NCBI GenBank assembly: GCA_028686425.1
Contig: JAQUBZ010000014.1
Span: forward strand, 1 to 60,736
DNA: 60,736 nt
DNA from: Bacteroidales bacterium
Lineage (GTDB): Bacteria > Bacteroidota > Bacteroidia > Bacteroidales > UBA932
Reading direction: 5' to 3'
Positions 40,709-51,443 of the stretch are shown here, one piece after another. The translations under genes and the position numbers were made by a program. Positions within the stretch are counted from its first letter, which is position 1. The number at the start of each line of letters is the position of its first letter. The notes below the pieces were generated by a model. That model saw only the letters and a list, made by a program, of their open reading frames with translations. It did not search any database and had not been told where the DNA came from.

Positions 40709-41674
40709 ATGGAGATATTATTGTTTATAGTCGGAATATTACTGATTCTTCTCGGAGCCACATGGTTGGTTGACGGAGCATCGGGGATTGCACGCAAATT
40801 CGGTCTGTCGGAATTTCTGATTGGTGTAACTATCGTAGGAATAGGCACTTCCACCCCTGAAATGGTAGTCAGTTTTATAGCGGCAATCAAAGGCAATGCC
40901 GACATATCAATTGGTAACATTACCGGTTCAAATATCTTCAACACTTTGTTTATTCTCGGAGCCACAGCATTGGTGGCCCCGATCACTTTTACATCAGGCA
41001 ATATCAAAAGGGATGTTCCGATTGCAATGGGTGCCTCATTTTTAGTATTGTTGATGGCTCTTGATACTGTAATCTGGGGCGGAAATGTTAATATGATAGG
41101 AAGATTTGACGGAATTATTCTGCTTATCTGCTTCGGAATATTTTTGCTCCACTCTTTCAGACATGACGACAAAAATGTTTCCGTCATCGAAGATACACAA
41201 ATTTCAGATAAATCTAAAGATAGAAAACCTATTGCCAATATTATCCTCATTATAATAGGACTTGCCGGATTGATATACGGGGGTAATCTTTTTGTAGATT
41301 CCGCAACAGTCATTGCCGGAAAGCTTGGTGTATCCGATGCTATAATAGCAGTCACCATCATGGCCGGAGGAACGTCGCTTCCCGAACTTGCCACTTGTAT
41401 TGTTGCAGCCCTCAAGAAGAGGGGTCAGATGGCCCTCGGCAATGTATTGGGCTCAAATGTATCCAACATTCTGTTAATTATCGGCGGAAGTGCTGTAATT
41501 ACTCCGCAGACAATGGGAAAAGTTACATTTTTAAGTCTGTTTGTGATGGCATTTGTATCGATTCTGATATTTGTCACCGCATTTACTTTTAAAAAGAAAC
41601 AGCTTGACAGATGGGAAGGTCTCTTGTTTCTTATCCTGTACATCGCCTACATTTATGCAATAATTCAAATATGA
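40709..41674 (+). CDS. Calcium/sodium antiporter (CaCA family, YrbG-like)
   Basis: 321 residues with about ten membrane helices in two inverted halves. Each half carries an alpha-repeat: GVTIVGIGTSTPEMVVSFIAAIKGNADISIGNITGSNIFN (~40-79) and AVTIMAGGTSLPELATCIVAALKKRGQMALGNVLGSNVSN (~212-251). The acidic residues in S/T-x-P-E are the ion-binding glutamates. It exchanges Ca2+ for Na+ or H+ at the inner membrane. It follows carB by 12 nt and its stop overlaps the HAD gene start (ATGA). Confidence 0.95.
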   Translation: MEILLFIVGILLILLGATWLVDGASGIARKFGLSEFLIGVTIVGIGTSTPEMVVSFIAAIKGNADISIGNITGSNIFNTLFILGATALVAPITFTSGNIKRDVPIAMGASFLVLLMALDTVIWGGNVNMIGRFDGIILLICFGIFLLHSFRHDDKNVSVIEDTQISDKSKDRKPIANIILIIIGLAGLIYGGNLFVDSATVIAGKLGVSDAIIAVTIMAGGTSLPELATCIVAALKKRGQMALGNVLGSNVSNILLIIGGSAVITPQTMGKVTFLSLFVMAFVSILIFVTAFTFKKKQLDRWEGLLFLILYIAYIYAIIQI

Positions 41675-42276
41675 CACTTCGTAACATAATATTTGACTTT
41701 GGCGGAGTTTTGATTGATTGGAACCCGCGTCATCTTTATAAGGGATATTTCAAAAGCGATGAGCAGATGGAATATTTTCTAAATAATATCTGTACCAACC
41801 AATGGAATGGCGAAACAGACCGCGGAAGGCCGTTCCGGGAGAGTATTTCTATTCTTCAGGCGCAATATCCGGAGTATCGCGATGCCATTCAGCTCTATAT
41901 GGACGGATGGACGACAATGATAAAAGGGGCCATATCTCCCACTGTGGAAATTTTAAAAGCCCTGAAAGCCAAGGAATATCACTTGTACGGCCTTACCAAT
42001 TGGTCAGCCGAGACATTTCCATACGCTTACAACAGATTTGAGTTTTTGCATATTCTGGAAGGTATTGTTGTATCGGGAGAAGAAAAACTGCTTAAACCGG
42101 ATCCTGCAATTTATAACAGGTTGATTGAAAGGTATCATCTGAAACCCGAAGAATCGTTGTTCATTGATGACAATAATGTCAATGTGGAAGCAGCTGCAGC
42201 TTTGGGAATGAAAGGCATCCATTTTACCGGTGCGGAGGAATTGCTGAATCAATTATCACTTCTCAAGGTATTGTAA
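41671..42276 (+). CDS. HAD family phosphatase (YihX/haloacid dehalogenase type IA)
   Basis: 201 residues from the ATG at 41671, which overlaps the antiporter stop as ATGA; the frame reaches back to 41611 but the HAD fold starts here. Motif I is FDFGGVLIDW (catalytic Asp nucleophile at residue 9, with Gly-Gly instead of the acid/base Asp-x-Asp spacing, as in the YihX group). Motif II is GLTNWS, motif III Lys in SGEEKLLKPDPAIY, and motif IV LFIDDNNVNVEAA. It probably dephosphorylates a sugar phosphate such as glucose-1-phosphate; the substrate is not defined by sequence. Confidence 0.9.
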   Translation: MTLRNIIFDFGGVLIDWNPRHLYKGYFKSDEQMEYFLNNICTNQWNGETDRGRPFRESISILQAQYPEYRDAIQLYMDGWTTMIKGAISPTVEILKALKAKEYHLYGLTNWSAETFPYAYNRFEFLHILEGIVVSGEEKLLKPDPAIYNRLIERYHLKPEESLFIDDNNVNVEAAAALGMKGIHFTGAEELLNQLSLLKVL

Positions 42277-42508
42277 CGGTAAATGCAGCCCCACTGCTAT
42301 CTCGTATGGGGCATCCTGCCAAGCCGGCAATCACATTAAGCGCGGTTATGATTTGATGATTCATATAGGAAAGAAAGGCAGATTGCATTACTGCAGTCGT
42401 TCCATTTTCATCCGGCCATTAAATAAAAATTAAAGAATATAAAGTTCATAACGAATATAGTAATTTTTAGACAAATTATTACTAATTTTGAACATCAATT
42501 TATAAAAA
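42277..42508. other. 232-nt spacer upstream of the Hdr-like operon; contains an unexplained G+C-richer segment
   Basis: The first ~140 bases are richer in G and C than the following A+T-rich promoter region. Both strands are open: a minus frame from 42388 to 42263 would encode 41 residues beginning MQSAFLSYMN, and a plus frame without a good ATG is open to about 42426. I recognise neither. The plus strand has CCCCACTG (42292-42299), a GGGG pairing partner and CCTGCC (42316-42321), which weakly recall the core of a cobalamin riboswitch. It may be a gene relic or a structured leader. Confidence 0.3.
42483..42490 (+). promoter_or_regulatory. -7 promoter element for the Hdr-like/cysteate synthase operon
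   Basis: TAATTTTG is 18 nt before the ATG at 42509, in an A+T-rich stretch; no convincing -33 box at 19-21 nt. Confidence 0.4.
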
Positions 42509-43210
42509 ATGGGAATACTCTATCAAAAACTCACTCAGGATTATCGCATCAAGGAGGGGCTGAAGGCGTGTATTAATTGCGGAACATGCACAGCAATATG
42601 CCCGGCAGCCGAATTTTACAAATACAACCCCAAAACGATAGTAAATATCGTACAAAGTCAGGACGATGACCAGATTGAAGAATTGTTGAAAGGTGAACAA
42701 ATCTGGTATTGCGGAGAATGTATGTCGTGCGTTACAAGATGTCCGCGCAAGAACGCCCCCGGTTTGGTAATAATGGCGCTCCGTTCTTTATCGATTGACA
42801 TGGGATATTTTGTAGAGAGCGAAAAAGGGAGACAGCAACTGCCTCTTACACGTGCCATGTGCGGCAATATTCTCAATTACGGATACTGTGTATATCCGAG
42901 AACCTACAAATACGAAGACCATCCCGAATCGGGACCTGTCGGTAAATGGATCGGAGAGAATCTCGATGCAGTACATGAAAGGCTCGGATCCAACCTTGAC
43001 GGCAAGGGTCCGGGAGTATTAAGAAAAATTCCTCAGGAATCGCTTGATGAGCTGAAAGCCATCTTTGACGTTACGGGTGCCACGCGCAGAATGAAAGTTG
43101 TTGAAGAGGCTTCGAAGCGTAAGGCTGAAGAAATGGGGCTTTCGATGGAGGAATATGAAAAACGTGCATTCAACGTCACAGGTACCCAACACCTGAACCA
43201 TAAAATATAA
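42509..43210 (+). CDS. HdrC-like 4Fe-4S dicluster protein, first gene of the Hdr-like operon
   Basis: 233 residues. Two [4Fe-4S] motifs are intact: C21, C24, C27, C31 (CINCGTCTAICP) and C68, C71, C74, C78 (CGECMSCVTRCP), as in HdrC of heterodisulfide reductase. The remaining ~150 residues (TRAMCGNILNYGYCVYPRTYKYEDHPESGPVG and a charged helical tail) are an extension absent from the minimal ~190-residue HdrC. It would pass electrons between the HdrA-like flavoprotein and an HdrB/D-like subunit in the cytoplasm. The next gene starts 21 nt downstream. Confidence 0.88.
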   Translation: MGILYQKLTQDYRIKEGLKACINCGTCTAICPAAEFYKYNPKTIVNIVQSQDDDQIEELLKGEQIWYCGECMSCVTRCPRKNAPGLVIMALRSLSIDMGYFVESEKGRQQLPLTRAMCGNILNYGYCVYPRTYKYEDHPESGPVGKWIGENLDAVHERLGSNLDGKGPGVLRKIPQESLDELKAIFDVTGATRRMKVVEEASKRKAEEMGLSMEEYEKRAFNVTGTQHLNHKI

Positions 43211-43231
43211 TAACAGAAAACTACTATATCT

Positions 43232-44302
43232 ATGATATTTCAAGGTAAACAAAAGATATGGTCCGACTATCAAAAGGACATTCCGGATGATCACTATTTT
43301 TATGTCAGAAGCTGCATCCGCCAAAACTTCTTTCCTGCTTCAGAGCAGACATTTTTAGATATTGTCCACAACCGTCTCGGCAAGGATTTTTATGAGACAC
43401 CGCATCACACCACCTGCGGAGGTATTGCATATCACGGGGAAGCCATTCCTCAAGAGACCGTGATGACCATTATTGCCCGTCAGTTTGCCCTCATGACCGA
43501 ATCGGGATATGAAAATTATGTATGTTCGTGCATCACCTCTTTCGGATTATATACTGAAACCATGGATGATTGGAGGAATTTTCCCGAACTTGAGGCCAAA
43601 ATACGAGAAGACCTCTGGAAAGCGTGCCGCAGGGAGTTCAAGGTGCCGAAATATCTTGCACACGCCAGCGATGTTATCTATAAATTCCGTAATGAAATAG
43701 CCGAGCGTGCCAAGTTCAGACTCGTCAATAAAGAGACAGGCGAGCCGCTGAGAGTGGTCGAACATATAGGATGTCACTATTCCAAAATGTTCCCGTCCAA
43801 AGGGATTGGCGGCGCCGAATACCCTTACGTACTTGCAGGAATGATTGAATCGTGGGGAGGAGAAGTCATTGATTATCCTGAAAGGAGACATTGCTGCGGA
43901 TTCGGTTTCCGGCAATATCTTGTCAAAGCCAATCGTGGATATTCGATATCCAATACCTATAAGAAGTTTGAATCTATGGAGCCGTACAAGCCTGACATGA
44001 TCATAACCAATTGCCCAGGATGCCCGTTTTTTATGGACAGATGGCAGTATGTGATAGCAGAACAGACAGGCAAGACTTACGGAGAGAACGGATACGGAAT
44101 ACCGGTGTTCACTTACGAAGAGGTGGCGGGACTTGTACTCGGATACAATCCGTGGGATCTGGGACTTCAGATTCATCAGGTCGCAGTCGAGCCGCTGCTC
44201 GACAAAATCGGGATTCCGTATGACAAAGCCGACAAATATAAAGGCAAAAACGGTAAACTTTTGAGGGTTCCTGAATATCCTATGAATATAAAATGTTGCT
44301 AA
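43232..44302 (+). CDS. HdrB-like CCG-domain protein
   Basis: 356 residues. The C-terminal CCG motif is canonical: C181, C221-C222, C261-x-x-C264 (spacing 39 and 38), which in HdrB holds a noncubane [4Fe-4S] cluster at the disulfide-reducing site. The N-terminal motif is modified: C28, then only C62 where a CC pair is expected (TTCGG), then C98-S-C100 instead of CxxC. The region between (residues ~100-175) and the tail (PEYPMNIKCC) are unlike methanogen HdrB. It is likely the thiol/disulfide-active subunit of the complex encoded by this operon. The natural substrate is unknown. Confidence 0.85.
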   Translation: MIFQGKQKIWSDYQKDIPDDHYFYVRSCIRQNFFPASEQTFLDIVHNRLGKDFYETPHHTTCGGIAYHGEAIPQETVMTIIARQFALMTESGYENYVCSCITSFGLYTETMDDWRNFPELEAKIREDLWKACRREFKVPKYLAHASDVIYKFRNEIAERAKFRLVNKETGEPLRVVEHIGCHYSKMFPSKGIGGAEYPYVLAGMIESWGGEVIDYPERRHCCGFGFRQYLVKANRGYSISNTYKKFESMEPYKPDMIITNCPGCPFFMDRWQYVIAEQTGKTYGENGYGIPVFTYEEVAGLVLGYNPWDLGLQIHQVAVEPLLDKIGIPYDKADKYKGKNGKLLRVPEYPMNIKCC

Positions 44303-44312
44303 ATATAGACTT

Positions 44313-45329
44313 ATGAAAGAAAATGTAGTTATAATAGGCGGTGGTCCGAGCGGAATTGAAGCTGCCCGCCGGATAAGAAATTTCGGATACACCCCTATTC
44401 TGATTGAGAAAGAATTACGTCTTGGAGGGCATCTTGCACAATGGGACAGACTTTTTCCGGAAGGTGTATATGCAAAAGAGGTATTGCAGACTCTGCTTTC
44501 CGATATGGACGGAATCAAATGGTTTACAGATGTCCAGATACTCACAATCAACAGATTGAAAGACACTTACGTCATCAAGTTGACCAATGGTATCTCTGTT
44601 CAGTCCAAGGCGGTGCTGATAACTACGGGGTTCCAGCTTTTCCAGGCAGAAAAGAAAGAAGAATACGGTTACGGCATTTATAATCACGTCATTACAAATG
44701 CAGATCTGGAACGTTATTTTCAGAACAGAAAAGATTCGAGAATCGATGATCCGAAAGTGATAGGATTTGTTCACTGTGTCGGTTCGAGAGACGAAAAGGC
44801 CGGAAACAGACAGTGTTCAAAGGTATGCTGTGCCACTGCCGTCAAACAAGCTTGTGAAATCAAACAATTATATCCGGATGCCACCGTGTATTGCTTTTAT
44901 ATGGATTTGCGCATGTTCGGAAGGAGATATGAAGATATGTATCTTGAAGCCCAACAGAAATACGGCATACGTTTTATTCGCGGAAGAGTTTCGGAAGTAT
45001 CCGAAAATCACGAAGGAAGACTTGTCGTGAAGGCTGAAGACACTTTGTTTGGCAGACCTTTGAGACTTTCGATGGACCTGCTTGTCCTCATGTCGGGAAT
45101 AGTATCAAGCCACCAAAGTCAGGAACTTGCCAAGATGATTAAACTTCCTGTGGGAGAAGACGGATTTTTTCTTCCTCAAAACACAATCCTTGAGCCTTGC
45201 AAATCCCAGAAACAGGGTATTTTCTTTGCCGGAGCATGTACGGGACCAAAGACCATTCCCGAATCACTTAGTGAAGCAAGAGCAGCCGCTGTAGCTATAA
45301 ATGATTACTTTAATACCATGACAGAATGA
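44313..45329 (+). CDS. HdrA-like FAD-dependent oxidoreductase, short form
   Basis: 338 residues. The FAD/NAD loop VVIIGGGPSGIEAARR is at 5-20. The HdrA signature cluster is C155 (FVHCVGSRD), C168 (QCSKVCC) and C172-C173. The ending GIFFAGACTGPKTIPESLSEARAAA is the conserved HdrA FAD C-terminal segment. It is about half the length of methanogen HdrA (~650) and lacks both the N-terminal domain and the C-terminal ferredoxin domains, so it resembles the compact HdrA of sHdr and Qmo-type complexes. It is the electron-sorting flavin subunit. Its stop overlaps the next ATG by 4 bases. Confidence 0.88.
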   Translation: MKENVVIIGGGPSGIEAARRIRNFGYTPILIEKELRLGGHLAQWDRLFPEGVYAKEVLQTLLSDMDGIKWFTDVQILTINRLKDTYVIKLTNGISVQSKAVLITTGFQLFQAEKKEEYGYGIYNHVITNADLERYFQNRKDSRIDDPKVIGFVHCVGSRDEKAGNRQCSKVCCATAVKQACEIKQLYPDATVYCFYMDLRMFGRRYEDMYLEAQQKYGIRFIRGRVSEVSENHEGRLVVKAEDTLFGRPLRLSMDLLVLMSGIVSSHQSQELAKMIKLPVGEDGFFLPQNTILEPCKSQKQGIFFAGACTGPKTIPESLSEARAAAVAINDYFNTMTE

Positions 45330-45652
45330 TTGATTTCGGATTTGCATTAACACCAAGCGCAACTCTTCAAATCGATAATCTTGACAACAAACTTTTTGAA
45401 CAATTGCGCAATATCGAACCTGACGTCGCAAAATGTATGGCGTGTGGATCCTGTACCGCAAGCTGCTCAGCCGGCAATTATACTGAGTTGAATCTCAGGA
45501 AAGTGATTTTGAGCCTCCAGAGAGGACGGGAACAAGACACCCTCAACTCCCTCAAATCGTGTATGCTCTGTGGTAAATGTAATATTGTATGCCCGCGCGG
45601 CATCAATACAAGGCATCTGATCTTAAGTATTTGTAAAGTTTATAATATTTAA
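45326..45652 (+). CDS. Second HdrC-like 4Fe-4S dicluster ferredoxin
   Basis: 108 residues. Two [4Fe-4S] motifs: C37, C40, C43, C47 (CMACGSCTASCSAG) and C79, C82, C85, C89 (CMLCGKCNIVCPRG). In the first, Ser replaces Pro after the fourth Cys; the second is classic. It is the minimal HdrC form. It starts inside the last codons of the HdrA-like gene (ATGA overlap) and lies 5 nt before the membrane subunit gene, so it probably links HdrA to the membrane cytochrome/HdrD protein. Confidence 0.88.
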   Translation: MIDFGFALTPSATLQIDNLDNKLFEQLRNIEPDVAKCMACGSCTASCSAGNYTELNLRKVILSLQRGREQDTLNSLKSCMLCGKCNIVCPRGINTRHLILSICKVYNI

Positions 45653-45657
45653 AGGCC

Positions 45658-47478
45658 ATGATGAGAGAACGATTTTTATCAGGATATGACAGTTTTGTCC
45701 TTCCATTCATGATAGGGATGGCTTTTATTCTTGTTTACTGCATAGCGGGCATGATTAAGGTTATCATGCAACTCAACAAAGAGGACAAAATCAAACTCGC
45801 AAAATCCCTGTTTTACCCCGCCAATGCTTTCAAGAACCTCAGGGATATATTTGCAGACTGTATTTTTCACGTAAAAATATGGAAAAGAAACAAACTTCTC
45901 GGATACATGCACTCGAGTATAGCTTTCGGATGGCTTATGCTTATCGTCATAGGTCATATTGAGACATGGATTTACATCCCTCAAAGAAGCGGACTTCTCT
46001 ATTATCCCGTATTTTTCAGGTACTTCATGTCGGTGGAGAGTTATACGTTGAGAGGAAGTTTCTTCTTCTTTCTGATGGACTTTTTCCTTCTGATGGTTCT
46101 GAGCGGCATATTTTTAGCTATTTTCAAACGTTTCAGATCCAAGATTCTCGGAATGAGGAGAACCACCAAACTCACTCTGTTGGATTATATAGGGCTATAC
46201 AGCTTGTGGGCGATTTTTCCACTCAGACTCATTTCTGAAGGTTTTACTGCCGGAATCAGCGGAGGAAGTTTTTTAACAATACCTGTCAACTGGTTGTTTG
46301 CCAATTTTTTGAGCAAGCCTGAAAATTTCGACTATACATGGTGGGCTTATTCTATAGTGCTTGGAGTTTTCTTTATTGTACTTCCTTTTACAAGATATAT
46401 GCACATTCCCGCCGAAATACTGCTTATTCCTATGAAAAATGCGGGTATCAAAGTAAGACATCCGCGAAAAGGGATGGCCCTTGCGCAGCTCTATTCCTGC
46501 TCAAGTTGCGGACTCTGTATCGATGCATGTCCTATGGGTACACAAAAGAAGAATCTGAAAGATTCAACCGTATATCTTGTAAGGCAGATTAAAAGACGGA
46601 ATGAGACAAGAACGAGGGAAATCTCCGATAAATGCCTTATGTGCGGCAAATGTGCGGCAATCTGCCCTGTCGGGGTTGCAGCTTGTGATTTGAGACTTGC
46701 CGTAAGAGAGGAGCAAAAGTGCAACATACATGGTGATTACACTTATCTCAAAAGTGTTGTCCCTGATTTGAACAAGCAGAACGACAGGGGAGAGGACAAA
46801 GTGCTCTATTATGCCGGCTGTATGAGTTCTCTAACACCTGTCATCTCCAGATCGGTTGTCAAGATTCTTGACAAGGCCGGTGTCAACTATGAGTTGATGG
46901 ACAAGGATGGAAGTATATGCTGCGGCAGACCTCTGCTTCTTGCAGGCAAAAAAGAGGAAGCTGAAGCGTTAATAGCCAAAAATAGGGAGATTATACACAA
47001 TTCGGGAGCAACAACACTCCTTGTGTCATGTGCCATCTGCTACAAAATATTCTCTGAAGAATATAGCTTGGAGGGTATAAAAGTAATTCACTACACGGAA
47101 TACTTTGAATCTCTTGCCAAACAAGGTAAAATAACATTGACGAAAGGGTCATCCAGATATGTATATCACGATCCTTGCGAGCTTGGTCGCGGATGCGGCA
47201 TCTATGATGCTCCGCGCGAAGCCATTTCCCGTATCGGAGAGCTGGTTCCTGCCGAAAAAGAGAAGAAGGATAGCATCTGTTGCGGAGGTTCCATCGGAAG
47301 TCTCACACTTTCATACACGGAGCGCGGACATATCACCCAATATGCTGTCAACAATCTGATAATCAATACACCGGACAAAATTGTCACAGCCTGCCCTCTC
47401 TGTCTTAAAACTTTCTCCAAATACTCTGATGTAAAAGTGATTGACTTTGCCGAAGCATTGTCTCAACAAATGGAATAA
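45658..47478 (+). CDS. Membrane-anchored cytochrome b-like / ferredoxin / HdrD-like fusion subunit
   Basis: 606 residues. Residues ~1-260 are a NarI/HdrE-like membrane domain with about five helices; H85 (GYMHSS), H100 (GHIETW) and H249 (YMHIP) are candidate heme-b ligands. Residues 281-291 (CSSCGLCIDAC) and 326-336 (CLMCGKCAAIC) bind two [4Fe-4S] clusters. Residues ~385-605 contain two complete CCG motifs: C388, C421-C422, C458/C461 and C507, C541-C542, C579/C582. This combines HdrE, HdrC and HdrD in one chain, so the complex can exchange electrons with the menaquinone pool. It is the likely quinone-linked terminus of the operon's complex. Confidence 0.88.
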   Translation: MMRERFLSGYDSFVLPFMIGMAFILVYCIAGMIKVIMQLNKEDKIKLAKSLFYPANAFKNLRDIFADCIFHVKIWKRNKLLGYMHSSIAFGWLMLIVIGHIETWIYIPQRSGLLYYPVFFRYFMSVESYTLRGSFFFFLMDFFLLMVLSGIFLAIFKRFRSKILGMRRTTKLTLLDYIGLYSLWAIFPLRLISEGFTAGISGGSFLTIPVNWLFANFLSKPENFDYTWWAYSIVLGVFFIVLPFTRYMHIPAEILLIPMKNAGIKVRHPRKGMALAQLYSCSSCGLCIDACPMGTQKKNLKDSTVYLVRQIKRRNETRTREISDKCLMCGKCAAICPVGVAACDLRLAVREEQKCNIHGDYTYLKSVVPDLNKQNDRGEDKVLYYAGCMSSLTPVISRSVVKILDKAGVNYELMDKDGSICCGRPLLLAGKKEEAEALIAKNREIIHNSGATTLLVSCAICYKIFSEEYSLEGIKVIHYTEYFESLAKQGKITLTKGSSRYVYHDPCELGRGCGIYDAPREAISRIGELVPAEKEKKDSICCGGSIGSLTLSYTERGHITQYAVNNLIINTPDKIVTACPLCLKTFSKYSDVKVIDFAEALSQQME

Positions 47479-47489
47479 CGAATTTAAAC

Positions 47490-48776
47490 ATGATAACTAA
47501 TTTTAAACCAACAGAATACTCTCTTAAAAATGTAGCTTCAGGCAGAGTATTCAATGATTCCGGATGGCTGCTGAATGATCCCGAAGGGTCAGAACCGTCA
47601 CTCATAAGGGCAGAATATGCCGCAAAACAGATAAATTTCAAATCTTCCGAATTCGGGATATACAAATTTGCCGACTGGCTTCCGGTCAGCCATTTGCTGG
47701 AAGGGTCATCCCCTACTGTAACATACAAGAGCAAAGGGCTTGCGAAAGAACTCGGTTTAAGCAATCTATATATCTCATTTTCAGGATATTGGCCTAAAAT
47801 TGGAGCAAATATGACTACCTGCTCCTTCAAAGAGACTGAAGCCTATTCTGTTTGTGCAAGACTATCTTCCAAAAGCGACAGAGTACTTGTTGTCGCTTCT
47901 GCGGGAAATACGGCTCGTGCTTTTGCCAAAGTCTGTTCACAAAACAGTATTCCTCTGATTATCAGTGTACCGGAAGATAATATTGATGCTCTCTGGTTTG
48001 ACAAACCACTCAACGACTGTGTCAAACTGATTTGCTCTCCCAAAGGAAGTGACTATTTCGATGCGATTGCTCTGGCCGACAAAATATGCACATCTCCAAA
48101 ATTTTTTGCCGAGGGGGGAGCAAAAAATATAGCAAGAAGAGATGGTATGGGAACTACAGTTCTCTCTGCTGCCGAAGCTATCGGTCGCATTCCCGATTGC
48201 TATTTTCAGGCTATAGGAAGCGGTACAGGGACAATTGCCGCATGGGAAGCCAACCTGCGCCTGATAGAAGACGGGCGATTCGGCTCTCACAAGATGAAAT
48301 TGTTCCCTTCTCAAAATATTCCGTTCACGCCGATGTATGATGCGTGGAAAGCGTCAAGCCGACCACTTCTCCCTATGAATGATGAAGAGGCTCGTGTAAA
48401 AGCTCTTGAAATTGATGCCAAAGTGCTCTCAAACAGAAGACCTCCATACAGTATCAAAGGTGGAGTGTATGATGCTTTAAGCGATGCGGGGGGAGACATT
48501 GAGGTAGCGGACAATAGAGACATCCGGCAGATGCAGGAATTGTTTTTGAGGAGCGAGGGAATTGATATACATCCTGCTGCCGCTGTGGCCTTAAAAGGGA
48601 TGCAAAACGCTTTCGATGCGGGAAAGATGCCGCGCGAAAGCATTGCAATGCTCAATATTACCGGTGGAGGAGAACAACTATTCAAGCGCGAGCATAAAAT
48701 ATGTTTCCTTAAGCCATCGTTAATTGCAAATGCCGCAGATGATGGAATTGTGGAGAAAGCAGAACGCCTGTTTTAG
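47490..48776 (+). CDS. Cysteate synthase homologue (threonine-synthase-like PLP enzyme)
   Basis: 428 residues of PLP fold type II. The PLP lysine is K114 in TTCSFKETEA. The phosphate-binding loop ASAGNTARAFA (136-146), AIGSGTGTIAAWEA (241-254) and LNITGGGEQLF (near the end) follow. The segment YKSKGLAKELGLSNLYISFSGYWPKIGA (~79-106) is the hallmark I associate with methanosarcinal cysteate synthase, which makes L-cysteate from O-phosphoserine and sulfite, rather than with threonine synthase. Cysteate feeds coenzyme M in those archaea and sulfonolipids in some Bacteroidota. It starts 11 nt after the Hdr-like membrane subunit, so it is almost certainly in the same operon. An ordinary threonine synthase role is less likely. 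Confidence 0.82.
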   Translation: MITNFKPTEYSLKNVASGRVFNDSGWLLNDPEGSEPSLIRAEYAAKQINFKSSEFGIYKFADWLPVSHLLEGSSPTVTYKSKGLAKELGLSNLYISFSGYWPKIGANMTTCSFKETEAYSVCARLSSKSDRVLVVASAGNTARAFAKVCSQNSIPLIISVPEDNIDALWFDKPLNDCVKLICSPKGSDYFDAIALADKICTSPKFFAEGGAKNIARRDGMGTTVLSAAEAIGRIPDCYFQAIGSGTGTIAAWEANLRLIEDGRFGSHKMKLFPSQNIPFTPMYDAWKASSRPLLPMNDEEARVKALEIDAKVLSNRRPPYSIKGGVYDALSDAGGDIEVADNRDIRQMQELFLRSEGIDIHPAAAVALKGMQNAFDAGKMPRESIAMLNITGGGEQLFKREHKICFLKPSLIANAADDGIVEKAERLF

Positions 48777-48806
48777 AAAAAATATAACTTAACTAAAAAT
48801 AAATTT

Positions 48807-50168
48807 ATGCTTAGAAAAGCCGTAAATGCGAGTGTACATGTTGTGCAGAAGTATCTCCCGGAGCCATTCATTTTCGCCATATTGCTCACCTTTGTAGCTT
48901 TTATTGTAGCCATGCCTGTGGGGCATCAGACTCCGGTTGAAGTACTGTCCAATTGGGGAAACGGAGTGTGGGGGCTTCTCGCCTTTTCGATGCAGATGGC
49001 TTTGGTATTGGTCTGCGGTTCTACTCTCGCCGATGCACCTTCCATCAAAAAAGGTCTCGACAAATTGTCCTCACTTCCTAAAAAACCTGTCGGAGCTATC
49101 GCTCTGGTATCGTTTGTATCGGCCGTTGCATGCTGGATCAATTGGGGATTCGGGCTCATAATAGGTGTAATTTTTGCCAAGTCGATTGCCCGCAAGCTCC
49201 GGGGAGTAGATTACAGATTGCTTATAGCATCGGCCTACAGCGGATTTGTAGTGTGGCACGGCGGTATATCGGGATCGATTCCGCTGGCACTTGCCACACC
49301 GGGAGAAGCTCTGACCGACACTACCATGGGAGTTGTGACCGCTCCTATTCCTATCAGTCAGACTATTCTGTCTCTCGATAACATAGTATTGTCCATAGTC
49401 ATTATAATTGCTCTTGTGACAGTCAATTCTTTGATGCATCCGAAAGGAAAAGGTGTCGTGGAAATAGATCCGGATCTTTTGAAAGAAGATGAGACAGAAG
49501 ATAAATTTACCCCCTCCACCCCCGCCGAAAAAGCGGAAAACAGCATGGTTATCAGCATTCTGATCGCCATAATGGGATTTGGATATCTGATTATAAAGTT
49601 GTTTGTCAATGGCGAATCCCTTGATCTCAATTCTGTCATAATGTTATTTCTTTTCCTCGGAATAGTATTGCACAAGACACCTATCGCTTACGTAAAGTCC
49701 ATGACCAAAGCTGCAACAGGCAGTGCCGGTATTTTACTTCAATTTCCGTTTTATGCAGGAATAATGGGAATCATGACCGGTGTTTCTGCTGATGGAGTAT
49801 CGCTTGCAGGAGAAATCAGCCGCGTATGTGTGGCAATATCAAATGAACATACTTTTCCGCTTCTGACATTTCTGAGTGCCGGTATTGTCAATATATTCAT
49901 TCCGTCCGGAGGCGGTCAATGGGCAGTCCAGGCTCCTATTATGATGCCTGCCGGAGCCGCAATAGGCGTTTCGCCTGCAATCACAGGCATGGCAATAGCA
50001 TGGGGAGATGCATGGACCAATCTTATTCAGCCATTTTGGGCTATCCCTGCACTTGCCATAGCTAAACTCGGGGCTAAAGACATAATGGGATTCTGCATAA
50101 TCAATCTGATAGTGACAGGAGTGATTATTTGTACAAGCTTCTATGTCCGGACTTTTATAGGTATCTAA
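48807..50168 (+). CDS. AtoE/short-chain fatty acid transporter family permease
   Basis: 453 residues with about 11-12 hydrophobic helices. Family segments are YLPEPFIFAILLTFVAFI (~15-32), GFVVWHGGISGSIPLALATPG (~145-165) and the conserved late part IFIPSGGGQWAVQAPIMMPA...MAIAWGDAWTNLIQPFWAIPAL. The AtoE family carries short-chain carboxylates, but substrate range is poorly known. It follows the cysteate synthase gene by 30 nt, so a sulfonate, cysteate or related small organic acid is a reasonable alternative substrate. It ends 3 bases from the convergent folC stop. Confidence 0.88.
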   Translation: MLRKAVNASVHVVQKYLPEPFIFAILLTFVAFIVAMPVGHQTPVEVLSNWGNGVWGLLAFSMQMALVLVCGSTLADAPSIKKGLDKLSSLPKKPVGAIALVSFVSAVACWINWGFGLIIGVIFAKSIARKLRGVDYRLLIASAYSGFVVWHGGISGSIPLALATPGEALTDTTMGVVTAPIPISQTILSLDNIVLSIVIIIALVTVNSLMHPKGKGVVEIDPDLLKEDETEDKFTPSTPAEKAENSMVISILIAIMGFGYLIIKLFVNGESLDLNSVIMLFLFLGIVLHKTPIAYVKSMTKAATGSAGILLQFPFYAGIMGIMTGVSADGVSLAGEISRVCVAISNEHTFPLLTFLSAGIVNIFIPSGGGQWAVQAPIMMPAGAAIGVSPAITGMAIAWGDAWTNLIQPFWAIPALAIAKLGAKDIMGFCIINLIVTGVIICTSFYVRTFIGI

Positions 50169-50171
50169 TTG

Positions 50172-51443
50172 CTAAATAAAACGTTCGAGTACTTCGGCAA
50201 CAACAAAATTGCTGCCTCCGATAAAGATCAGATCTGAAGCTTCCGCTTGTTGCCCGGCCATGTCGAGTGCCTCTTGTACGGAAGTCGATACCTGTCCTGT
50301 AATACCATAATCGGAGAGTATTCCTGCAAGTTTTGCAGCAGGCAGGGCCCTCGGGCTGTCGGCATTTGTAAATATATAATGAACATCGTGAGGCAGATAG
50401 TGGGCTATTGCATCTATATCCTTATCTGCCACAACACCGAAAATCATGAAAATATGGTCGTAATCGCACGATATTTTATCGATTTGCTCTCTTACCCATC
50501 TGATACCATGAGCATTATGTCCTGTATCACAAATAATGCGTGCTTTGCCCGGTTCATTGGAAAGGGTCTCCCATCTGCCGTGCAGTGCCGTATTGGCGGC
50601 AGCATGACAAATTCCGTCAATCAATTGATTGGAATCGAGCCTGAGCAATCCTTCCCTCAATATGTTCAGGACCGCAAACAGGGTATTCAGGTTTTTCTGC
50701 TGATAATCTCCCGGCAAATCAAGGTCATGATAAGTAATGCCGTGCAAAGGCTCTTTCAAATCTTCTGCAAATACAATCCGGCTGCCCCTGTCTGCTGCAA
50801 TCTTTTCAAATACAGGTTTGGTCTCAGGCAGGGCCTCTCCTATCACCACCGGCACTCCCGGCTTGATAATGCCCCCTTTTTCAAATGCGATTTCTTCAAG
50901 GGTATATCCAAGATGCTCGCAATGTTCCAGACCTATATTGGTTATCACACTCAAAATGGGAGTAATGACATTTGTACTGTCCAACCTTCCGCCAAGTCCT
51001 GTCTCAATTACGGCAATATCCACTTTTTTCTCTCTGAAATAATCAAAAGCCATTGCAGTGGTAATTTCAAAAAATGAAGGGTTCTCCTCCTCGAAAAAAT
51101 GTTTCCATTTTACCATAAAATCGGAAACAGCCTCCTTGGAAATCATTTTGTAAGAGTTTTTCTCAATTATCTTGATTCTCTCCCTGAAATCAATCAGGTG
51201 AGGAGATGTATATAGACCGACTTTCAGATTATTGGCGGCAAGTGCCGAAGCCAACATGTGAGACACGGATCCTTTGCCGTTGGTACCTGCCACATGGATT
51301 GTCCTGAAACAATGATGAGGCATTCCCAAAACTGTATCAAAGCGTGTCATGGTCTCTATTCCCGGCTTGTAAGCTCTTTTTCCAACTTTTTGATATGATG
51401 GGAACTGAGTAAACAGCCACTCCAATTGTTGTTCGTAATTCAT
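50172..51443 (-). CDS. folC: Bifunctional folylpolyglutamate/dihydrofolate synthase
   Basis: 423 residues. The Mur-ligase-like ATP-binding loop is HVAGTNGKGSVSHML (~50-64); other motifs are LYTSPHLIDFRERI, FFEITTAMAFDYF, ETGLGGRLDSTNV and CDTGHNAHGI. It adds glutamate to dihydropteroate and folates in the cytoplasm. Length is typical. It is a single minus-strand gene, convergent with the AtoE-like gene and divergent from purL. Confidence 0.96.
   Translation of the reverse strand: MNYEQQLEWLFTQFPSYQKVGKRAYKPGIETMTRFDTVLGMPHHCFRTIHVAGTNGKGSVSHMLASALAANNLKVGLYTSPHLIDFRERIKIIEKNSYKMISKEAVSDFMVKWKHFFEEENPSFFEITTAMAFDYFREKKVDIAVIETGLGGRLDSTNVITPILSVITNIGLEHCEHLGYTLEEIAFEKGGIIKPGVPVVIGEALPETKPVFEKIAADRGSRIVFAEDLKEPLHGITYHDLDLPGDYQQKNLNTLFAVLNILREGLLRLDSNQLIDGICHAAANTALHGRWETLSNEPGKARIICDTGHNAHGIRWVREQIDKISCDYDHIFMIFGVVADKDIDAIAHYLPHDVHYIFTNADSPRALPAAKLAGILSDYGITGQVSTSVQEALDMAGQQAEASDLIFIGGSNFVVAEVLERFI

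Follow-up and report, generated by a model that had tools for sequence, protein, structure and literature searches.

The contig JAQUBZ010000014.1 of a Bacteroidales bacterium (GTDB lineage UBA932; assembly GCA_028686425.1), analysed here over its full length of 60,736 nucleotides and called the window below, carries at positions 42509-50168 seven plus-strand open reading frames (ORFs) with gaps of 21, 10, -4, 5, 11 and 30 nt. Searches against NCBIfam, Pfam and PDB assign to them HdrC-, HdrB-, HdrA-, HdrC- and HdrD/TfrB/LdhH-like products, resembling subunits of heterodisulfide reductase (Hdr), followed by a cysteate synthase and an SCFA_trans permease, in agreement with the gene content and spacing given in a preliminary description of this DNA. 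We propose that the first six genes, hdrC1-hdrB1-hdrA-hdrC2-hdrD and the cysteate synthase gene, represent a conserved module of sulfonolipid (capnine) synthesis in which the Hdr complex would oxidize sulfane sulfur to sulfite for the formation of cysteate, a reading that we judge moderately probable.

The product of the sixth gene (47490..48776, plus strand, 428 aa) scores 466 bits against TIGR03844, the cysteate synthase family, passing the equivalog cut-off of 324.9, and matches a solved cysteate synthase (PDB 9k3c) with an E-value of 4e-176; a threonine synthase is ruled out by a score of 32.8 bits against TIGR00260, whose cut-off is 167.1. The protein is thus identified by family as a cysteate synthase, as had been claimed, and is predicted to use O-phosphoserine and sulfite. 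That this gene and the hdr block belong together, an idea first drawn from the window alone, was borne out by a search of gene neighbourhoods in relatives. The window's family was sampled evenly, with 249 genomes taken from a larger group and searched at E up to 1e-60; cysteate synthase was found in 141 of them and hdrB1 in 121, with both present in 106 and neither in 93. The pairing is far beyond chance, the Fisher test of co-occurrence being descriptive only as it ignores kinship. In 78 of the 106 genomes with both genes, the two follow the same order on one strand with their starts 3.9-4.8 kb apart, which places cysteate synthase directly behind hdrD; in the remaining ones they are 7.7-11.7 kb apart in the same orientation (three genomes), far apart on one contig (three) or on different contigs (22).

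Similar neighbourhoods were seen in a named collection scanned with an alignment of HdrB1, from which the best 80 of 583 confirmed relatives were taken, all of them those nearest to the window; these loci overlap the other genomes searched, some contigs being equally long in both sets, and therefore do not represent an independent sample. Many of their record titles refer to animal gut or rumen samples, and several to Candidatus Cryptobacteroides. According to neighbour lists made by tblastn and ORF calling, cysteate synthase lies right behind hdrD in 49 of 72 loci (48 by script, plus L168, where the hdrD match is split in two), the other eight of the 80 ending too early for adjacency to be judged. 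The genomes of the 23 non-adjacent loci and of three of the eight unjudged ones contain cysteate synthase elsewhere in 22 of 26 cases (once as a fragment); one of the other four has only a weak match (25%) and three have none. A chance adjacency of the two elements is ruled out by these counts in the family genomes and in the named loci. On the tree of HdrB1, a quick one with long outer branches, adjacency to cysteate synthase takes 11 changes against a shuffled mean of 22.7, and on this tree it is clustered, yet appears to have been gained or lost several times.

The biosynthetic setting of the block is visible in relatives in which it is preceded, in the same operon, by two further genes, one for a protein like cysteate fatty-acyl transferase (CFAT) and one for a short-chain dehydrogenase/reductase (SDR). 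The complete operon CFAT-SDR-hdrC1-B1-A-C2-D-cysteate synthase is found in six of the 80 named loci (L130, L141, L147, L166, L171, L176) and, with the same order and strand, in three further genomes (L055, L207, L208), the gaps in L130, L207 and L208 ranging from -8 to 21 nt. In two loci of genus g45 (L177, L178), cysteate synthase occurs without the Hdr block beside an acyltransferase of the alpha-oxoamine synthase type and an SDR. The window genome carries a 73% match to this CFAT-like acyltransferase on contig C36, with an SDR gene directly after it, so that its cysteate synthase and its CFAT-like/SDR pair lie on two contigs. Because CFAT and SDR genes start the operon in relatives and a tandem pair of them is present in the window genome, the hdr and cysteate synthase block belongs, judging by gene context, with capnine/sulfonolipid synthesis, and the earlier suggestion that cysteate is made for sulfonolipids gains support. 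In the synthesis of capnine, CFAT has been described as the second step and 3-ketocapnine reductase as the third (PMC11211663), and the CFAT of A. finegoldii (alfi_1224) has been assigned to the Spt subgroup within the family of these acyltransferases (PMC9304779). Both activities are candidates here, assigned by family and context only, and their exact reactions may differ: the L130 acyltransferase reaches its best score, 299 bits, with a model of serine palmitoyltransferase whose cut-off is 640, and the L130 SDR gives a generic family match and is 32% identical to the SDR of the window genome. The CFAT search is unspecific, with matches in 215 of the 249 genomes at 1e-60, many of them at 1e-61 to 1e-75 and probably paralogues, so that its use was restricted to the window genome and to loci where neighbouring genes could be seen. 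An archaeal-type cysteate synthase for sulfonolipids is already known, since a review mentions a homologue of the archaeal enzyme in Alistipes and Odoribacter (PMC10191378); the main text of the paper cited there (PMC9304779) contains neither "archaeal" nor "cysteate synth".

A separate argument that the operon needs cysteate comes from a putative replacement of the enzyme in Candidatus Cryptobacteroides choladohippi (L173), where a different pyridoxal phosphate (PLP) enzyme is encoded between CFAT and SDR, with a gap of 3 nt to the former and a 4-nt overlap with the latter, the hdr genes following. This protein scores 149 bits against a threonine synthase model (cut-off 303) and 127 bits against that of cysteate synthase (cut-off 325), and the window cysteate synthase used as a query has no match in this draft genome at E up to 1e-10. 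By its position and scores, it looks like a second cysteate-forming enzyme.

The soluble part of the complex is encoded on the plus strand by hdrC1 (42509..43210, 233 aa, HdrC-like, two CX2CX2CX3C [4Fe-4S] motifs), hdrB1 (43232..44302, 356 aa, HdrB-like), hdrA (44313..45329, 338 aa, a short FAD-binding HdrA-like protein) and hdrC2 (45326..45652, 108 aa, a small HdrC-like protein with two [4Fe-4S] motifs). The motif cysteines of HdrC1 are conserved at a fraction of 1.0 in 85 sequences, as are, in 87 sequences of HdrB1, C28, C62 and C100 of a degenerate N-terminal CCG motif and C181, C221, C222, C261 and C264 of an intact C-terminal one; the structure model of HdrB1 is poor (mean pLDDT 58.6). 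The degenerate N-terminal motif is common to HdrB1 of the window, of a Picosynechococcus plasmid and of an A. ferrooxidans plasmid, and the C-terminal motif is complete in the first two and one Cys short in the third. The Picosynechococcus cluster runs C1-B1-A-C2-B2 and then an SQR-like gene, whose product reaches 83 bits to the type III SQR model (cut-off 525), and identity to its proteins amounts to 49% for C1 (over 206 residues), 42% for B1 and 43% for A. The match of HdrA to the 349-aa chain of PDB 6tjr, which we take to be the HdrA of the sulfur-oxidizing Hdr (sHdr) system of H. denitrificans, is a single one over residues 5-328 (201 bits) and hence full-length. A Pfam search found no Fer4 domain in HdrA, as expected of the short sHdr type, which binds FAD and has no ferredoxin domains. 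At the level of sequence, HdrC1B1A is thus related to the core of the sulfur-oxidizing Hdr complexes. Membership in methanogen HdrABC was considered and rejected, with scores below the curated cut-offs for HdrC (81 vs 350 bits), HdrB (128 vs 450) and HdrA2 (259 vs 1100).

Some other arrangements of these genes were encountered along the way. The plasmid cluster of Picosynechococcus sp. PCC 7003 (L211:8242-13982) has no annotated lbpA or GcvH gene in a 19-kb stretch. A second type of hdrC1-hdrB1 pair, with HdrB1 62-66% identical to that of the window, occurs in L206, L209, L210 and L088 without hdrA, hdrC2 or hdrD in the stretch covered. Locus L195 reads MarR-type gene, hdrA, hdrC2, hdrD, cysteate synthase, without hdrC1B1, a relative of which lies on another contig of that genome, and in L085, from a genome of the same order, the Hdr block stands after further HdrA-like genes and before a gene that by eye resembles methionine gamma-lyase.

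The fifth gene, hdrD (45658..47478, plus strand), encodes a 606-aa protein with a helical membrane domain, two [4Fe-4S] and two CCG motifs, and an EtfD-like fold. Among 82 sequences, H71, H85, H100 (95%) and H249 are conserved together with these motifs, and the AlphaFold model (mean pLDDT 86.4) finds its best PDB fold match in EtfD of M. smegmatis (9ojn; E 3e-19, TM 0.70 by query length, 16% identity), which groups HdrD with the EtfD/HdrDE-type membrane modules, haem binding being predicted. The haem b of EtfD is bound by His78 and His241, and the clusters of the protein form a chain that ends at menaquinone (PMC13083937); from their similar spacing, H85 and H249 of HdrD are the probable counterparts of these residues. 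The membrane outlet ascribed to the complex in the preliminary description is, on this modelled fold, of a kind serving menaquinone.

From these elements, a chain of reactions can be proposed. HdrC1B1A would oxidize sulfane sulfur, in the form of a persulfide, to sulfite at a CCG-bound iron-sulfur site of HdrB1, and the electrons would pass through HdrA and HdrC2 to the EtfD-like HdrD and on to menaquinone; cysteate synthase would then form cysteate from sulfite and O-phosphoserine, and CFAT and the ketoreductase would convert cysteate to capnine. The production of sulfite from sulfane sulfur by HdrC1B1A is plausible; its substrate and product, as well as the direction of the electrons and the contacts between the subunits, we infer. 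Midpoint potentials place the transfer of electrons from sulfane sulfur to menaquinone, with sulfite as the product, near thermoneutrality; by keeping the sulfite concentration low, cysteate synthase would thus draw the reaction forward and reduce the toxic effect of sulfite, which would in turn give a reason for the tight coupling of the genes. Sulfite is also what sHdr is described as releasing (PMC12423496). As for other sources, CysH has no match in the window genome; of the 249 family genomes, 8 have a match above the cut-off, and only two of these (G103, G227) are among the 141 with cysteate synthase, so that assimilatory sulfate reduction via CysH is unlikely as the usual sulfite source, sulfite routes other than CysH not having been searched. 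Within the operon, the Hdr block is the leading candidate for this role.

Several observations weigh against this proposal. By score, HdrA is no closer to 6tjr than to methanogen HdrA chains, the best of which has 212 bits and which align for the most part with the C-terminal two thirds of the protein. The quality of the family sample is mixed, as 138 of the 249 genomes are less than 90% complete or more than 5% contaminated, which leaves 111 within both limits. Among the 141 family genomes with cysteate synthase, 35 have no hdrB1. In 24 genomes of the same order outside the family, hdrB1 was found in six (plus one fragment) and cysteate synthase in four, and the single genome with both has them on different contigs; a draw at the level of the class (E up to 1e-80) told little, with hdrB1 in one of 246 other genomes, which also has cysteate synthase on another contig. 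Since the hdr block is mostly found without cysteate synthase outside the family, the Hdr complex has a wider role and was linked with sulfonolipid synthesis in the window's family. Finally, of 37 genomes searched for TusA, 7 have a match, including two from the window's genus, and no lipoate-binding protein gene (PF01597) stands beside the hdr block, GcvH matches being present in 32 of the 37 genomes, the window genome included. In six loci of genus g35, moreover, cysteate synthase has the gene of an FNT-family channel on one side and a SulP gene on the other (one of each checked by family), and sulfite may consequently also be imported.

The sHdr genes have been called "inevitably" associated with lbpA (PMC6067878), and for the LbpA-type partner, for which the preliminary description had suggested a search, none of the matches listed in the 37 genomes lies on the hdrB1 contig. 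Wherever both were found, the GcvH matches lie on other contigs than hdrB1; in the window genome (G000) there is a clear PF01597 match on contig C34 and a sub-threshold one on C18, and the hdr block is on C45. A GcvH protein may act on the Hdr complex from elsewhere in the genome. Tentatively, with belief and doubt close to balance, we go one step further and envisage a lipoate-independent, membrane-anchored Hdr-like sulfur oxidase dedicated to biosynthesis, which in anaerobic Bacteroidales would pass electrons from sulfane sulfur to menaquinone and release sulfite, the reaction being pulled by the immediate capture of this sulfite as cysteate for sulfonolipids; in one species or more, the formation of cysteate would have passed to a different PLP enzyme. 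With respect to TusA, the window contains on its minus strand, at about 1-2433, an open frame of 811 aa that is cut by the left edge and has a TusA domain at 493-699; by eye, it resembles a CoA-disulfide-reductase-like protein with TusA, rhodanese and DsrE-like parts. Of the 23 genomes searched in this genus, that of the window included, only the window genome and G005 have a TusA match.

The cysteate synthase genomes without hdrB1 and the FNT-type and SulP genes flanking cysteate synthase in one genus also agree with a different explanation, in which the Hdr complex makes no sulfite and serves another redox need, e.g., thiol-disulfide balance, the sulfite being imported through FNT- or SulP-type proteins or supplied by another route. 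The occurrence of the Hdr block without cysteate synthase in other families and in 15 of the 121 family genomes with hdrB1 points the same way. We consider this unlikely, although it deserves serious weight: every gene of the complete operons except those of Hdr has a known place in the lipid pathway, the Hdr genes stand directly before cysteate synthase, and the relatives of their core are found in a cluster with an SQR-like gene. The complex could also work in the reducing direction, with electrons from menaquinol and the membrane potential driving the cleavage of thiosulfate or an S-sulfothiol at the CCG site, so that sulfite, as required by cysteate synthase, would still be the product, along with sulfide or a thiol. 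Hdr enzymes are known to split S-S bonds at CCG clusters (PMC13083937), the modelled HdrD resembles a membrane quinone module, and the many gut and rumen record titles make an anaerobic life likely. Against this, the reduction of thiosulfate by menaquinol would be strongly uphill by midpoint potentials, the resemblance of C1, B1 and A to the Picosynechococcus cluster speaks for an oxidative setting, and no sulfurtransferase was recognized among the recurrent neighbours, thiosulfate transporters not having been covered by a family search; a reducing complex is, in our opinion, improbable. Sulfite formation by oxidation of sulfane sulfur is the reading that we prefer.

That all seven genes constitute a unit for cysteate production and export, with the AtoE-family permease (atoE, 48807..50168, plus strand; PF02667, 562 bits) exporting cysteate, is suggested by the short distance of 30 nt at which atoE follows cysteate synthase in the window, yet is very hard to credit, as AtoE is near the block in only 6 of 81 loci and in none of these six directly behind cysteate synthase, an opposite-strand SulP gene intervening in four and atoE itself lying on the other strand in two, a gene order that weakens the export reading, and as cysteate finds a use within the cell through the products of the CFAT-like and SDR genes. 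AtoE was for this reason discarded as a core part of the module, and the export route of the preliminary description falls with it, the permease being a local neighbour outside the conserved genes.

The promoter-like element reported earlier corresponds to TAATTTTG at 42483..42490 on the plus strand, a match to TAnnTTTG, which we take to be the Bacteroidota-type -7 promoter motif. Between hdrC1 and the gene before it, the plus strand has no second match, and the only other one from 42200 to 50400 is at 45846, inside hdrD; the singularity of the upstream element is thus correct, and its value as evidence for a promoter is weak because the motif has 41 plus-strand matches across the window. Around the module, a CaCA-type antiporter-like gene (by eye) lies at 40709-41674, two genes upstream of hdrC1, and many loci, including L109, L110 and L121, have such an antiporter-like gene upstream and an MscS-like channel gene (both by eye) downstream of the module or of a lone cysteate synthase. 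In several loci of the genus, including L035, L041, L043 and L048, an alpha-N-acetylglucosaminidase-like gene (by eye) is found directly downstream of cysteate synthase.

The sulfonolipids of gut Bacteroidota have been studied for their effects on inflammation (PMC9304779), and no account of the origin of the sulfite for sulfonolipids in anaerobes was found in the open-access literature available to us. Nor did that literature, in which subscription journals are mostly outside coverage, yield a paper tying an Hdr-like complex to sulfonolipids; by title and abstract, the open-access papers with both "cysteate synthase" and "heterodisulfide reductase" are about methanogenic or methane-oxidizing archaea. 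The operon provides a candidate source of this sulfite and makes the question testable. If our reading is true, Hdr-like sulfur oxidation, so far a part of energy metabolism, would also serve biosynthesis, and the soluble, lipoate-dependent system would be joined by one anchored in the membrane; the conserved operon could mark likely sulfonolipid producers among uncultured bacteria.

Among the systems described so far, the parallel with coenzyme M metabolism drawn in the preliminary description is probably coincidental, sulfur oxidation offering the better one. The QmoABC complex is likewise an HdrA-like, membrane quinone-linked complex of a sulfur pathway; the window differs from it in that the QmoC model scores 47.9 bits against a cut-off of 300 and no APS reductase is among the seven genes. 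With EtfD of mycobacteria and HdrDE of Methanosarcina, HdrD has in common a helical membrane part carrying haem-type histidines, a pair of [4Fe-4S] motifs and a pair of CCG domains, but whereas these take electrons from ETF or serve CoM-S-S-CoB, HdrD is paired with the soluble HdrC1B1A-C2. The sHdr system (hdrC1B1A-hyp-hdrC2B2 with lbpA) has in common with the window block the order C1-B1-A-C2, the short FAD-binding HdrA, related C1, B1 and A proteins and sulfite as the likely product, inferred for the window complex. Full membership in sHdr is ruled out by the absence of hyp and of a nearby lbpA, and the window block also differs in that the B2 subunit is replaced by the membrane-anchored EtfD-like HdrD and in that it sits with genes of lipid biosynthesis. 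With the sulfonolipid pathway (cysteate synthase, CFAT/SulA, 3-ketocapnine reductase), the genes described here have in common a homologue of the archaeal cysteate synthase, accompanied by CFAT-like and SDR candidates for the two later steps. They differ in being clustered and joined by an Hdr-like complex, whereas kcr genes of A. finegoldii have been reported to lie apart from cfat and Cys (PMC11211663).

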